A stretch of DNA of 64,000 bases, from contig WBUH01000001.1 in assembly GCA_008933805.1 (NCBI GenBank), positions 62,001-126,000 of the forward strand, written 5' to 3'. Positions 6,972 through 52,442 of the stretch are shown piece by piece. The position numbers and the translations under genes are program-made. Origin of the DNA: Bacteroidota bacterium (lineage in GTDB: Bacteria; Bacteroidota; Bacteroidia; UBA8524). The stretch's first letter is position 1. Every line of letters begins with the position of its first letter. The notes under the pieces are model-generated. The model saw only the letters and a program-made list of their open reading frames with translations, did no database searches and had not been told where the DNA came from.

Positions 6972-7026
6972 GTCAACATTGGCTTACAGGCTTCGATACT
7001 CGTAAAACTTCATATAATCTTTAAAA

Positions 7027-7127
7027 CATGGGGTTGAAACCCCATGCTGTTAAAATTACCTTCCGGAATAGGACTTAAGTCCTATTCCGGAAGGTAATTA
7101 CAAAGAGCGGCAGGTTTTAACCTGTCG
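7027..7127. repeat. Triple-hairpin intergenic element, copy A
   Basis: This 101-bp element has three consecutive inverted repeats. Hairpin 1 (7027-7046) has 9-bp arms, CATGGGGTT and AACCCCATG. Hairpin 2 (7054-7099) is a perfect 46-bp palindrome centred on GGACTTAAGTCC. Hairpin 3 (7108-7127) has arms CGGCAGGTT and AACCTGTCG with one G-U pair. It fills much of the 318-base gap between folC and the TPR gene. The same architecture recurs at 47748-47845 and 50822-50923. There is no coding potential. A role as terminator, RNA stability element or REP-like mobile repeat is possible. Confidence 0.85.
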
Positions 7128-7289
7128 TAAAAATGCGGCAACAGTTTTATGCATTAATTTTTTGTGTAATCTATCCCACGTGGATATTCCACTAAACAAT
7201 CCCCGTGATGCTGTTAACAAATAAACACACTGAAAACCCATTAGCCGTCGTTTTACTAATAAATTCGGGCAGTTTATTTTGGGCTAATT

Positions 7290-21873: not shown

Positions 21874-21892
21874 TTTAATAATAGCTATAAAT

Positions 21893-21924
21893 AAAAAAGG
21901 TTGGGCATTTACCCAACCTTTTTT
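21893..21924. terminator. Bidirectional terminator
   Basis: The stem GGTTGGG / CCCAACC with a 6-base loop is flanked by six A on the left and six T on the right. It serves both the diheme cytochrome gene and the convergent DUF4139 gene. Confidence 0.9.
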
Positions 21925-21946
21925 ATTTACCGAATTAGATAAACGA

Positions 21947-32671: not shown

Positions 32672-35131
32672 TTAAAACCTCATCAACACAGTTAAGTTAA
32701 TACGGCGACTGGTTAGGTAGTTAGGAACACCAAAAGTAGTACCCTCTACATCGCGCACCCAAATGTATGAAATGGTATTGTTGGCTTGGGTTAGATTGAA
32801 CACCTGTAAGCTAAGAGCCAATCCTTTGAACCATTTACCCACTTTTGAAGTAACACTATCACCCTCGGTAATAATATCGCGAGAGAAACCAATGTCGATA
32901 CGGCGGTAAGCAGGGAGTTTAAAGCCTTCCTTATAACGGTTATCAGCACCTAAATAAAAGGGCAGGTTAGAGCCGTACACAAGATTTAGCTGCATTTTGT
33001 AACGTGGCCACCTGTCTAACTCGTCTTGGAATAAGATACCCAAATTAAAACGTTGGTCGGTGGGGCGGCGTATATAACCTGATTCACGTTGTACACCCTT
33101 TGTATCAGTGTAAGTAATGTTTTCTTTGATACTCATGATAGAGAGGCTGAACCACGATTCCAAATCCTCAATAAACTCGCCGTTGATACGGGCATCCCAA
33201 CCAAAAGCACGGCCTTTTGAGTTGTTATTGGCATAATAACGGATACGGACGTTCTCAATTTGGTAGGGCACAAGGTTATCCAGTTGTTTGTAGTACACCT
33301 CTGAATAAAACTTGAACGGCCTACCCCAAGCAGTAAAGTTCATATCGCCGCCAAAAACATAATGGATACTGCGTTGGGCTTTTACGTTGGTATTTACCTT
33401 GCCGTCAAGTCCGCGCAATTCACGGTAAAACGGAGGTTGGTAGTAATGGCCGAACGCAAAGTGGAAGCTCCAGTCTAATTTTTTAAGGCTATCGTGTTTT
33501 ACGCGGCGGTTATAAGCACGATAAGGCTCAAACGAAATTTGTACCCGCGGGCTGATAACGTTTTGTTGGTTTAGCGACCAATAGTTAGTTCTGATACCGT
33601 AAGTAACCTGCAAGCGGATAGAATCTATCAGCATGGTAGTGTTTTGTATATAGCCCGATATACGTTGCGATTGTAGGGCATTAGAGCCTTTTACAAAACT
33701 GTTAATGTTAAGTGTATCGCCGCTGTTAAACGGCACAGAGTAACCTGCTGAATCAACATAATACCATTCGCGTACCCTGTCTTTTACCGATTCGGTTTGG
33801 AAGGTAGCACCCCAAAACAGCTGTGTTTTTTTAGTAATGTGATTACCCTTGTGGCTGATAGAGGCTACTTGTGCGTCAAGTTTGTTGCGGGCATGGTTGA
33901 TAAAGTATCCTACGCCGCGGTTAAATTTTGCCTGCCCGAAATCATCACTGCCCAGTTCGTTGTCCAACTGGTCTAAGCGGTAAGCACCTTCGGTGGTAAA
34001 GTACTCTGTTTCGCTGCTGGTATAGTATGAGCCTAATAGTTTAAGGTTGGTGTTTTTGCTTGCATCCCAATCAAACGTAAGGCCGTTCATAAAGGTATTG
34101 TAGCGCATCAATTCGCTACCGTCAAAAAACACAGTCAGTTGTAAAGCGTTAGTAACTGTACCAAACGATGTGCGTTGGGTTTCAGGTACCAACAAAAAGC
34201 GGTTTAAGGCATAGTTACCCAAATAACTCAGGCGCATTTTTTTGCTGATATCGTAGGTAAATAACCCTTGTATATCCACAAACAAAGGCTTGTAGCTGCC
34301 TTGTACGTCTAAACTGTTTAGTATGTATTGGTTGCTGCGTATGCGGCTACCCAGCATCCAGCTAAGACGGCGTTTGCTGCGCCCGCCTGCAAACAAGCTG
34401 GCACCCATAAAATTTAGGTTAGCGCCTGCTTCAAGCTTTTCGGGTTTGCGGTATTTCACATCCAGCACACTCGAAAGTTTATCGCCGTATTTTGCTTCAA
34501 AACCACCTGCCGAAAAGCGCACACTCTCCACCATATCAGGGTTGATAAAACTTAACCCCTCTTGCTGGCCGCTGCGCACAATCTGCGGGCGATAAATCTC
34601 AATATCGTTTACATACACAAGGTTCTCGTCAAAATTACCCCCGCGAACGTTGTAGGCTGAACTTAGCTCGTTGTTAGATGTAACACCGGGCAGGGTGCGC
34701 AAAATGCTTTCAAAATTACCCGATACGTTGGGGTTGAGACCTGATACTTTGGGGTTAAGCGTGATAATGGGTAAACCCCTGTCGCGCTCGTATTCAAACT
34801 CGGTTTCAGCAAGTTCAAAGTATTTAAACCCAAGCGATACGTTTAGCTTGTTTTTGCTATCGGGGGCAAACGGCCCAACGGTTTTAACCACTGACTTAGC
34901 ACTAATGTGGCTAAATATCAGCGTAACTTCAGTGTTTGCGGGTATGTATAGCGTGTAACTGCCGTTTTTTGCTGTGAAAGTGCCTTTATCGCTACCCTTA
35001 ATGTTTACGCCTGCGTCTTCAACACTACGCCCGAGTGAATCAGTAACAATGCCCGTGATAACGGCATTTTTTTGCCCAAACAAGGCAATACTTCCCAACA
35101 ACGTAAATAGTAATATGGTATAGCGCAGCAT
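32672..35131 (-). CDS. TonB-dependent outer-membrane receptor
   Basis: An 818-residue receptor. The signal peptide ends at IALFGQ, and a carboxypeptidase-regulatory-like domain follows (about 22-100, ITGIVTDSLGRSVEDAGVNIKG). Then come the plug (ILRTLPGVTSNN, YNVRGGNFDENLVYVNDI) and a 22-strand-type barrel ending in the aromatic residue Phe. Substrate is unknown; there is no SusD partner, so it is not a typical polysaccharide locus. The frame also allows a start 7 codons upstream (35152). It lies 30 bases after rpe in a likely two-gene operon. It would be energised by an ExbBD-TonB system such as that at 3.7-5.6 kb. Confidence 0.9.
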   Translation of the reverse strand: MLRYTILLFTLLGSIALFGQKNAVITGIVTDSLGRSVEDAGVNIKGSDKGTFTAKNGSYTLYIPANTEVTLIFSHISAKSVVKTVGPFAPDSKNKLNVSLGFKYFELAETEFEYERDRGLPIITLNPKVSGLNPNVSGNFESILRTLPGVTSNNELSSAYNVRGGNFDENLVYVNDIEIYRPQIVRSGQQEGLSFINPDMVESVRFSAGGFEAKYGDKLSSVLDVKYRKPEKLEAGANLNFMGASLFAGGRSKRRLSWMLGSRIRSNQYILNSLDVQGSYKPLFVDIQGLFTYDISKKMRLSYLGNYALNRFLLVPETQRTSFGTVTNALQLTVFFDGSELMRYNTFMNGLTFDWDASKNTNLKLLGSYYTSSETEYFTTEGAYRLDQLDNELGSDDFGQAKFNRGVGYFINHARNKLDAQVASISHKGNHITKKTQLFWGATFQTESVKDRVREWYYVDSAGYSVPFNSGDTLNINSFVKGSNALQSQRISGYIQNTTMLIDSIRLQVTYGIRTNYWSLNQQNVISPRVQISFEPYRAYNRRVKHDSLKKLDWSFHFAFGHYYQPPFYRELRGLDGKVNTNVKAQRSIHYVFGGDMNFTAWGRPFKFYSEVYYKQLDNLVPYQIENVRIRYYANNNSKGRAFGWDARINGEFIEDLESWFSLSIMSIKENITYTDTKGVQRESGYIRRPTDQRFNLGILFQDELDRWPRYKMQLNLVYGSNLPFYLGADNRYKEGFKLPAYRRIDIGFSRDIITEGDSVTSKVGKWFKGLALSLQVFNLTQANNTISYIWVRDVEGTTFGVPNYLTSRRINLTVLMRF

Positions 35132-47726: not shown

Positions 47727-47747
47727 AGAATGAAATTATTGATTTTT

Positions 47748-47845
47748 AACAGGATGTAAAATCCTGTTTTGATAAATGATAAGTTCGGGAGGGTTTTAAA
47801 CCCTCCCGAACTTATCATTTGATAGCGATAGGTTTCAAACCCATC
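47748..47845. repeat. Triple-hairpin intergenic element, copy B
   Basis: This 98-bp element lies between the TolC-like gene and hpt. Hairpin 1 (47748-47768) is AACAGGAT / ATCCTGTT with a 5-base loop. Hairpin 2 (47774-47820) has perfect 23-bp arms around a single T, with the core GGGTTTTAAACCC. Hairpin 3 (47827-47845) has arms GGTTT / AAACC extended by GAT / ATC across one mismatch. Arm sequences differ from copies A and C, but the three-hairpin layout and total length are the same. Confidence 0.85.
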
Positions 47846-47866
47846 ACAAAGTTTATCATAAAACAC

Positions 47867-50110: not shown

Positions 50111-50149
50111 CAAAAATCATTTGTATTTATAACGGATGCTATAAAAAAT

Positions 50150-50180
50150 AAAGCCCGACTTTTATAAAAAGTCGGGCTTT
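50150..50180. terminator. Bidirectional terminator between obgE and bioY
   Basis: The stem AAAGCCCGACTTTT / AAAAAGTCGGGCTTT has a 2-base loop, A-rich on the left and T-rich on the right. It serves both convergent genes. Confidence 0.9.
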
Positions 50181-50198
50181 ATTTTTAAGCTGTATTAA

Positions 50199-50741
50199 TT
50201 AAGCAGGAGTTTCTGTTTTAAGGTATTTTCGAGTAAGCCAGTACACCAACGATACAACCACCGATTTGGCTATTGCGCCCGGCAGCAGGTTGAAGAAGCC
50301 ATTGGTAAGTGCATAATCAATATCCATTTTGTGGTATAAAATACCCCAAGCTGTTCCAAAAATCATAATTACCGCGTGGGTCATTAATATCCAAGCAAAT
50401 ACACCAAACCAATCTTTAAAATATTGGCGTGCTGCGGTTAGCAAAATAACCGCAAACGGAAATCCGTATATGTAACCTGCTGTGCGGCCAAAGTAAAACT
50501 CTTTGCCAAAAAATTCTCCGCTAAAAACGGGCAAATACATCCCCGCCAACATATATAAGAACGTGCCCAATAAATTGGCCTGACGGCTAAAATACAGGCA
50601 AGTAAAACACAATATCAGCGATTGCAGCGTTATGGGCACTGCACCCACATCTATCTTCATTTTTGCACCGGCCACCAAGCCTATCAGCACCACAGGAGCT
50701 TGCCACAATAAGCCTTTCTCGGGTTTGTAATTCAATTTCAT
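50199..50741 (-). CDS. bioY: BioY-type biotin transporter subunit
   Basis: A 180-residue membrane protein with about five or six helices. Family features are AGAKMKIDVGAVPITLQSL near the N-terminus and FGRTAGYIYGFPFAV in the middle, both typical of BioY, the substrate-binding component of biotin ECF transporters. No ATPase or EcfT partner lies nearby. A perfect -7 element sits 8 bases upstream of the ATG. No biotin-repressor operator was recognised. Confidence 0.88.
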   Translation of the reverse strand: MKLNYKPEKGLLWQAPVVLIGLVAGAKMKIDVGAVPITLQSLILCFTCLYFSRQANLLGTFLYMLAGMYLPVFSGEFFGKEFYFGRTAGYIYGFPFAVILLTAARQYFKDWFGVFAWILMTHAVIMIFGTAWGILYHKMDIDYALTNGFFNLLPGAIAKSVVVSLVYWLTRKYLKTETPA

Positions 50742-50757: not shown

Positions 50758-50821
50758 CTGTTTTTTGTATTACGCTAATAAAGGATGACAGTAAAGGCAC
50801 TAAGGTGCAAATTGCTGCTTT

Positions 50822-50923
50822 GGGCGGGTTGAAACCCACCCCTTGCTAAATTACAGTAGTGCGGGGGACTTAAGTCCCCCGCACTACTGTAATTTCAACA
50901 GCATAGGATTTTAATCCTATGCT
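50822..50923. repeat. Triple-hairpin intergenic element, copy C
   Basis: This 102-bp element lies between bioY and the pentapeptide-repeat gene. Hairpin 1 (50822-50841) is GGGTT / AACCC around GA, extended by GGG / CCC across one mismatch. Hairpin 2 (50848-50895) is a perfect 48-bp palindrome centred on GGGACTTAAGTCCC. Hairpin 3 (50900-50923) has 11-bp arms AGCATAGGATT / AATCCTATGCT around TT. The layout equals copies A and B. It lies upstream of both flanking genes, so it is not simply a terminator. Confidence 0.88.
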
Positions 50924-50960
50924 TAATTAATTATATTTACAGTAAGGAATATTGTATTGT

Positions 50961-52442
50961 ATGACAGAAGAAGAAAAGCGTTTACAGGAGCTTGAAACAG
51001 AGAATCAGAAACTTCGGGAAGAAATAGCAAAGCTGCGTCCTTCGTTAAAGAAGAGAGCAAAAAAAGTCTTCAAACGCGGAAGGATAATAACAGAAGCCTA
51101 TTTAGGCAGGGGACTTAAAACCAGTATCCAAAAATTTCTTACTGAATTAACGGAACAAAAAACGGTTAGTAAAGATACAGTGTCCGACCTCTCCGCACGA
51201 TTGGTAATGAGGTTTACCCGCTTGGGGAGAATTGGTTTTTTGTTAGCTCTAATCCCCATTTTATTTACTCTTTTTCAAACATGGTTGTTGTTTAATCAAA
51301 ATGCAATGATTGAAAAGCAAAATCAAATTGCGGAGAAGCAAACTGAAATTGCAAAAAACCAAGCGGATTTAATGGGGGTGCAAAACAGCATGGTGCAAAA
51401 TCAAACTGCATTAATGGATAGCCAAACCAATATTATGAAGTTCCAAAACCAAATGTTTGGTGAGCAAAACAAAATGGTAGAAAAACAGACAACTATGATT
51501 GACTGGCAGAATCGGTTGTTTGAAAACCAAAATTTGATGGTGCAGGCTCAAAATAACCGTCTCGATCAACAAACCTATTTGCAAGAAGCCGAACGTCGTA
51601 GTGCATTGGTATTTTTAATGGGCAATATTTTTGATGAAGTAAATAATGAGTTACGGGAAGATTATGGCAATGATGGTATACGTAACTTATCACCTCAGTT
51701 AATTGGACGTATCATTGCATTGAGTCATAGCTTAACCCCTTATAAGTTTCTAGTTAAGGATGAATTAACTGGTAGTGAATATAGTCCTGAAAGGGGGCAA
51801 TTGCTTATAACACTTGCCCATAGTCGTATCGATTGTAGTAGCCTAGATGAGATATATAGCAAAGCAGATTTTTCAAACTCTTTCTTATCAAAAGCAAAAT
51901 TAAGTGGAGCATATTTACGATACGTTGATTTATTCAATGCTAATTTAAGCGATGCCGATTTAAGCGATGCCGATTTACAAAGAGCCAAGTTAGGGAGTTC
52001 GATTTTAATCAGTGCCAATTTAGAGAATGCTAATTTGAGCAGCACCGATTTATGGGCAGCTGATTTACGTAGTACTAATTTAAATGATGTTAATTTATTT
52101 TCTGCAAACTTAAGCTATGCCTATATGAGCAATGCCAACTTAACAAGAGTCGATTTACGTTACGCCAATTTACGCAATGCCAATTTACACAATGCAGTGT
52201 TAACATCTTCCCTGTTAAATCAAGTCAAACTAGAGAATGCCGATTTAAATAATTCTCTTTTCAAGTATTCTAATTTATGGGAAGCTGATTTACATGGGGT
52301 TGATTTAGAAAATATTAGGATAAATAAAACTAACTATTTGGCTCTAATTGGCACTAAAAGTTACGTTTATAATTATCAAAAGCACTTTTTATACAATGAT
52401 ATAGTTACACAAGATTCTATTTTCAAGCTTATCAAAAAATAA
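50961..52442 (+). CDS. Membrane pentapeptide-repeat protein with glutamine heptads
   Basis: A 493-residue protein. An N-terminal coiled coil comes first (about 2-25), then a basic segment and one membrane helix (about 88-111). A 98-residue stretch of 14 heptads (113-210) follows, in which every heptad starts with Gln and has hydrophobic residues at positions 4 and 5. A globular stretch (about 211-300) precedes about 25 pentapeptide repeats (about 305-450, of the form A-N/D-L-x-x) that should form a square beta-helix. I recognise no named family. The start is the ATG at 50961; a TTG three codons upstream is also open. It appears monocistronic. The pentapeptide part is AT-rich. Confidence 0.85.
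   Translation: MTEEEKRLQELETENQKLREEIAKLRPSLKKRAKKVFKRGRIITEAYLGRGLKTSIQKFLTELTEQKTVSKDTVSDLSARLVMRFTRLGRIGFLLALIPILFTLFQTWLLFNQNAMIEKQNQIAEKQTEIAKNQADLMGVQNSMVQNQTALMDSQTNIMKFQNQMFGEQNKMVEKQTTMIDWQNRLFENQNLMVQAQNNRLDQQTYLQEAERRSALVFLMGNIFDEVNNELREDYGNDGIRNLSPQLIGRIIALSHSLTPYKFLVKDELTGSEYSPERGQLLITLAHSRIDCSSLDEIYSKADFSNSFLSKAKLSGAYLRYVDLFNANLSDADLSDADLQRAKLGSSILISANLENANLSSTDLWAADLRSTNLNDVNLFSANLSYAYMSNANLTRVDLRYANLRNANLHNAVLTSSLLNQVKLENADLNNSLFKYSNLWEADLHGVDLENIRINKTNYLALIGTKSYVYNYQKHFLYNDIVTQDSIFKLIKK
51297..51590 (+). repeat. Coding repeat: 14 heptads beginning with Gln
   Basis: Fourteen consecutive 21-base units encode Q-x-x-h-h-x-x (for example QNAMIEK, QNQIAEK, QTALMDS, QNKMVEK, QNLMVQA). 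Codons vary freely between units, so the pattern is kept at protein level rather than by recent duplication. Confidence 0.9.

Follow-up and report, generated by a model that had tools for sequence, protein, structure and literature searches.

The closest described systems all involve a Y1 transposase. The REPINs of the REPIN/RAYT system of Pseudomonas fluorescens (PMC3116915) consist of two inverted terminal repeats and a spacer that is preserved in length and pairing but not in sequence; their spacers show compensatory changes, they are intergenic, their three families each lie beside a Y1 gene of their own, and a clover fold has been proposed for the transposase. IS200/IS605 elements (IS608, ISDra2) encode a Y1 HUH transposase and carry subterminal hairpins as ends. 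TnpA-Y1 subclass 1.2 is distinguished by the signature Y---Q--HH, along with DHVH and WQ motifs, a length of ~140-150 aa, low copy number and occurrence in Bacteroidetes and Cyanobacteria; according to its survey it has no REP and, as a rule, lacks IS200-type ends (Quentin et al. 2018, PMC6006769). Moreover, TIRtrons/TIRYTs (PMC3733652), as far as the parts of that paper considered here go, are Y1 genes flanked by inverted repeats, with possible genomic families that lack the GTAG tag. Apart from the lack of REP and IS200-type ends in subclass 1.2, the traits listed for these systems recur in the element family described below, which we met in a 64-kb stretch of DNA (hereafter the window) and followed through the 4.29-Mb draft genome containing it.

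Three-hairpin elements in the window

Three intergenic gaps of the window each hold an element of ~104 bp with the same build, i.e., a short hairpin, a perfect palindrome of 46-48 bp and another short hairpin (Table 1), as an earlier note on this DNA had described. The three central palindromes are the strongest three inverted repeats of the window, and folding of each element as single-stranded DNA yielded three hairpins (z of about -12 against dinucleotide shuffles). The same note held that the arms differ almost completely between copies, which is true of one block only: the 7027 and 50822 copies have both an outer AATTAC and an inner GGACTT in common, and only the ~10 bp between these differ. 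Similarly, eight of the nine hairpin apices have the TTnAA-like form that it reported, the ninth (GGATGTAAAATCC) being TGTAA. The 50822 copy does lie upstream of both its neighbors, between divergent ORFs (50199-50741 on the minus and 50952-52442 on the plus strand). A second dialect is represented by the 47748 copy, which has the apex GGGTTTTAAACCC and, as its first hairpin, AACAGGATGTAAAATCCTGTT; this hairpin is one base off a hairpin flanking a Y1 gene at G000:C2:244547; two of the three Y1-gene dialects (see below) are present in the window.

Table 1. Elements of the three-hairpin family found in the window, with their parts (R1, covariance model).
Feature	Position	Strand	Evidence	First hairpin	Central palindrome	Last hairpin
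Dialect-1 three-hairpin element	7025..7129	+	CM R1 104.1 bits, fold, palindrome	7027-7046 (hairpin A)	7054-7099 (arms 23, no loop)	7107-7128 (hairpin B)
Dialect-2 three-hairpin element	47746..47848	+	CM R1 62.4 bits, fold, dialect pattern	47748-47768	47774-47820 (arms 23, 1-nt centre)	47827-47845
Dialect-1 three-hairpin element	50820..50923	+	CM R1 106.4 bits, fold, ORFs	50822-50841 (hairpin A)	50848-50895 (arms 24)	50900-50923 (hairpin B)

Elsewhere in the window, gene ends at 50144-50186 and 21888-21929 bear AT-rich inverted repeats whose loops measure 3 and 6 nt; these have the look of ordinary bidirectional terminators and are not part of the three-hairpin family.

A dispersed intergenic family

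In the draft genome, a covariance model (R1) built from 25 copies returned at least 132 strand hits, corresponding to at least ~67 loci of the ~104-bp element (lower bounds, as R1 scored 150 of the 3125 first-look candidates). Thus the palindromes of the window, which the earlier note had allowed might prove to be just three unrelated ones, belong to a family that keeps the three-hairpin order in most copies: hairpin centres are 40 bp apart in the 26 scanned copies of one length, and most copies retain this spacing. The same model found no match in four genomes of the same family and one weak locus in 25 genomes of the same class. Chance palindromes were ruled out by model specificity together with pattern controls, the core GGACTTAAGTCC occurring 49 times in the genome and GGGTTGAAACCC 24 times, against 0 for the reversed control of each. 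Each of the 49 GGACTTAAGTCC centres was inspected.

Identity of related halves was 0.87-0.94 from 20 to 50 nt off the centre, fell to 0.39 at 50-60 nt and was ~0.25 beyond 80 nt (half pairs were picked for similarity at 22-50 nt, which inflates the identity inside and leaves the drop outside unaffected). Homology between copies ends abruptly ~50-54 nt off the centre, and this sharp loss outside the element indicates that it was dispersed as one unit into unrelated intergenic sites. Long flanks were available for 40 copies, of which 36 lie clear of any major ORF; across all 40, the neighboring genes are co-directional for 23, convergent for 10 and divergent for seven. Read inward, the terminal hairpins have conserved apices, GGnTTGAAAnCC at one end and in most cases GGnTTAAAAnCC at the opposite end, with 36 mixed and 11 like pairs, so that apex type gives the element a tendency in orientation and not a strict one.

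Two arrangements that involve other repeats were also seen. At L080:5781-17521 (G000:C2:385780-397520), pairs of three-hairpin elements enclose a ~200-bp module starting TTGTCATTCTGACCGCAGGGAAGAA; this composite, present at least twice, may have dispersed as one unit. At L036:1500-1600, a dialect-1 element is interrupted just past its centre by a repeat-like stretch that starts with TCATTGCGAGGTCTCCCGAAGCAATC.

Concerted variation of the central stem

Across copies the central stem keeps its outer AATTAC and inner GGAC, and the ~10 bp in between vary almost freely. Yet this block stays paired: of 590 variable stem cells, 578 were Watson-Crick, three G-T and nine other, with all four pair types seen. 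Paired cells made up 95.5% against 69.5% after shuffling, the side stems, which are short, being less well paired than the central one (92% versus 98%). Along a minimum-spanning tree of the arms, the changes between nearest copies comprised 84 concerted transversions as against 58 concerted transitions, a further 25 being one-sided or of other kinds. For example, two copies in one region differ at seven arm positions, all of them concerted, and at only 9 of 64 nt outside the arms. Moreover, identity between related copies was 0.61 for the arms versus ~0.9 for hairpins and spacers, i.e., the arms diverge faster.

Compensatory changes in RNA stems are commonly held to proceed via G-U and hence to appear as transitions. 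The scarcity of G-T and the excess of concerted transversions over transitions therefore fit copying of one arm onto the other at the DNA level, which the earlier note had raised and which we infer from this pattern, better than they fit selection on an RNA. DNA template switching, through which perfect stems are known to be both generated and mended (PMC8794818), would be the simplest explanation of the concerted arms. On the other hand, selection for a DNA hairpin could contribute to arm pairing and, if strong, could likewise leave few mismatches, which keeps arm copying at the level of a probable mechanism. That the arms were taken from the insertion site is unsupported for dialect 1, where the variable block lies inside conserved ends.

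Y1 transposase genes and their hairpin dialects

The Y1 transposase that the earlier note had proposed to look for is represented in the genome by three Y1_Tnp genes (IS200-like HUH), all three flanked by multi-hairpin elements and each with a dialect of its own: dialect 1 at C1, dialect 2 (the GGGTTTTAAACCC apex) at C2 and dialect 3 (CAACAGGTATAAAACCTGTTG) at C3, the central stem of the last being the weakest of the three. Signature hairpins occur genome-wide eight times for dialect 2 and 22 times for dialect 3, with 0 in controls. Thus location and dialect, both read from sequence, support a link between the Y1 genes and the elements. Dialect-3 hairpins (CAGGTATAAAACCTG) were also seen to lead repeats spaced at 180-245 bp (G000:C5:31003-31507, 34331-34576 and 73200-73448; C9:161679-161873), and the C5 repeat copies that were read contain a GCCACGAAGTCGCAAAG-like stretch.

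The Y1 proteins (140-151 aa) carry the Y---Q--HH signature as YIQNQQKHH, YIQNQQQHH and YIRYQEKHH, retain the catalytic DHVH and Tyr and possess the WQ motif; compared with the first protein, the second and third show 60% and 45% identity. They scored 80-96 bits against the IS200 model (cut-off 55) and 30.7-37.8 bits against the TnpA-REP model (NCBIfam NF047646, REP_Tyr_transpos), under its cut-off of 80, and their relatives of solved structure include the ISHp608 transposase. Judged by the relatives of these Y1 proteins, the host probably belongs to Bacteroidota. The gene is of low copy number with divergent copies, and none of the three is a near-identical multicopy transposase gene of the IS200/IS605 kind in this genome. 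In common with REP/RAYT systems, a repeat flanks the Y1 gene and one dispersed intergenic repeat family accompanies each transposase; in common with REPINs, two inverted terminal repeats enclose a pairing spacer of fixed length. GT[AG]G was not enriched at the hairpin foot (7 of 118 halves versus 11 in the reversed control). The REP/RAYT-like mechanism suggested earlier is thus supported by three Y1 genes, each with its own flanking hairpin dialect, but the enzymes are not classical TnpA-REP (RAYT) and there is no GTAG.

Related Y1 loci in other genomes

We compared 86 Y1 loci: 80 related ones from other genomes, mostly Bacteroidota, and a further six drawn from this genome and its family. Near the Y1 gene, long perfect palindromes were 17 times denser than farther off (0.43 versus 0.025 per kb), and the triple architecture, with short hairpins ~40-46 bp on either side, was found at 10 of 34 palindromes versus 1 of 567 control points. 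Hairpin-flanked Y1 genes cluster on the tree (eight label changes versus 28 when shuffled), and most of them fall in a single clade (33 of 37 rows) of this tree, whose deep branches are weakly supported. Dispersed copies number 44 in Cnuella takakiae, 20 in Larkinella knui and 11 in a Sphingobacteriales MAG, while in several other genomes copies occur only at or near the Y1 gene. The layout differs (two hairpins in Cnuella, four in the Sphingobacteriales MAG), and the flanks of elements from other genera align poorly.

In another large group of the tree, likewise with weak deep branches, Y1 proteins of ~146 aa with Y---Q--HH had flanking hairpins in 1 of 33 rows; subclass 1.2 may therefore comprise two groups that differ in function. 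The genome of L119 contains a MITE-like element (L224-L245) with ends GGTTCTCTGACAATTTTTGTGG and the palindrome TAACGTAGGGGTTGCAACCCCTACGTTA in both orientations, and other copies with unrelated perfect arms of up to 32 bp. There, arms of 20-32 bp differ outward from a shared core, and in this genome the arms may have come from the insertion site.

Alternative explanations

Strong covariation and folding would be expected of a structured RNA or cis-regulatory 3'-UTR element whose pairing is kept by compensatory selection at the RNA level. We consider this very improbable: G-U (3 of 590 cells) is no commoner than other mismatches, the concerted changes are mostly transversions, the gene context is mixed, the boundaries are abrupt and insertion-like, and no Rfam family was matched at gathering score (weak miRNA and leader matches being hairpin noise). 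Ordinary intrinsic terminators or attenuators, which are likewise intergenic GC-rich hairpins, are less credible still, and gene context and flank composition rule them out: 7 of 40 copies lie between divergent genes, the T-rich stretch stands before each outer hairpin read inward so that an exiting transcript meets A-rich and not U-rich sequence, and the design of three hairpins at 40 bp is fixed. The earlier note was right that a pure terminator role does not fit.

Greater weight, though still well short of an even chance, attaches to Y1-mobilized elements whose perfect arms result from selection for a recognisable ssDNA hairpin, through double mutations and with no arm copying. The Y1 link agrees with this, and length and pairing as selected features have a parallel in REPIN spacers (PMC3116915); but such selection sits poorly with the low identity of arms next to hairpins and spacers in related copies, and with entire 7-bp blocks that shift concertedly where the outside differs at 9 of 64 nt. 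Somewhat more doubtful is a block-wise swapping of the central palindrome among copies, with recombination or gene conversion acting at the conserved stretches AATTAC and GGACTTAAGTCC. Copies with similar sides and wholly different arms, C2:397101 and C2:397417 among them, look like products of such exchange, yet the donor pool must itself have diversified concertedly, and a stepwise arm series is present in the C4/C11 subfamily.

Proposed mechanism and comparison with known systems

The reading that we consider probable is that the elements are REPIN-like, non-autonomous single-strand mobile repeats, moved in trans by a Y1 enzyme, with arms renewed by copying. Beyond the family, its boundaries, its Y1-gene link and its concerted arms, this invokes transposase action, a single-strand intermediate and arm copying, which we infer as follows. 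As ssDNA, the element would form a clover in which two terminal hairpins are joined by the long central stem. The terminal hairpins are most likely recognised by a small Y1 HUH enzyme, of the kind found in TnpA-Y1 subclass 1.2 and encoded in trans, which would move or copy the element via single-strand chemistry as in IS200, with a separate dialect for every one of the three Y1 genes. The central stem would need mainly pairing and fixed length, leaving the middle 10 bp to drift freely, and a mutation in one arm would be either transferred to its partner or eliminated, most likely through DNA synthesis templated by the hairpin (template-switch or quasipalindrome). A more speculative and improbable extension is that the Y1 enzyme itself drives the renewal, the hairpin 3' end of a nicked central palindrome priming on the opposite arm. 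If true, the stem would be rewritten at every transposition and each copy would bear its own perfectly paired 10-bp tag, amounting to a dedicated generator of matched inverted sequence that is coupled to the transposase.

On the main reading, an orphan branch of single-strand transposases would gain a likely natural substrate, testable with short oligonucleotides, and the REPIN idea would extend past GTAG-tagged REPs and RAYT proteins. Moreover, perfect stem covariation, which is usually taken as proof of RNA selection, is here probably of DNA-level origin, making the family a clean example of a trap that also touches the discovery of non-coding RNAs from covariation.

In its workings the element resembles a REPIN, its closest known counterpart, but it is not a classical REP. 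Unlike REPINs, i) it lacks the GTAG tag and has terminal-hairpin apices TTGAAA/TTAAAA; ii) its central stem is perfect, in most copies along 22-26 bp, and both its ends and its apex are conserved; and iii) its transposase is closer to IS200 TnpA than to RAYT. In contrast to IS200/IS605, only the hairpin elements are multicopy and not the gene. TIRtrons/TIRYTs have other repeats (with a GGGGWSAS motif in some) and other transposase groups, and the parts of PMC3733652 considered here contain no three-hairpin element. Finally, in contrast to the subclass 1.2 survey (PMC6006769), the clade described here, which has the subclass signature, possesses multi-hairpin flanking repeats that are dispersed in some genomes.
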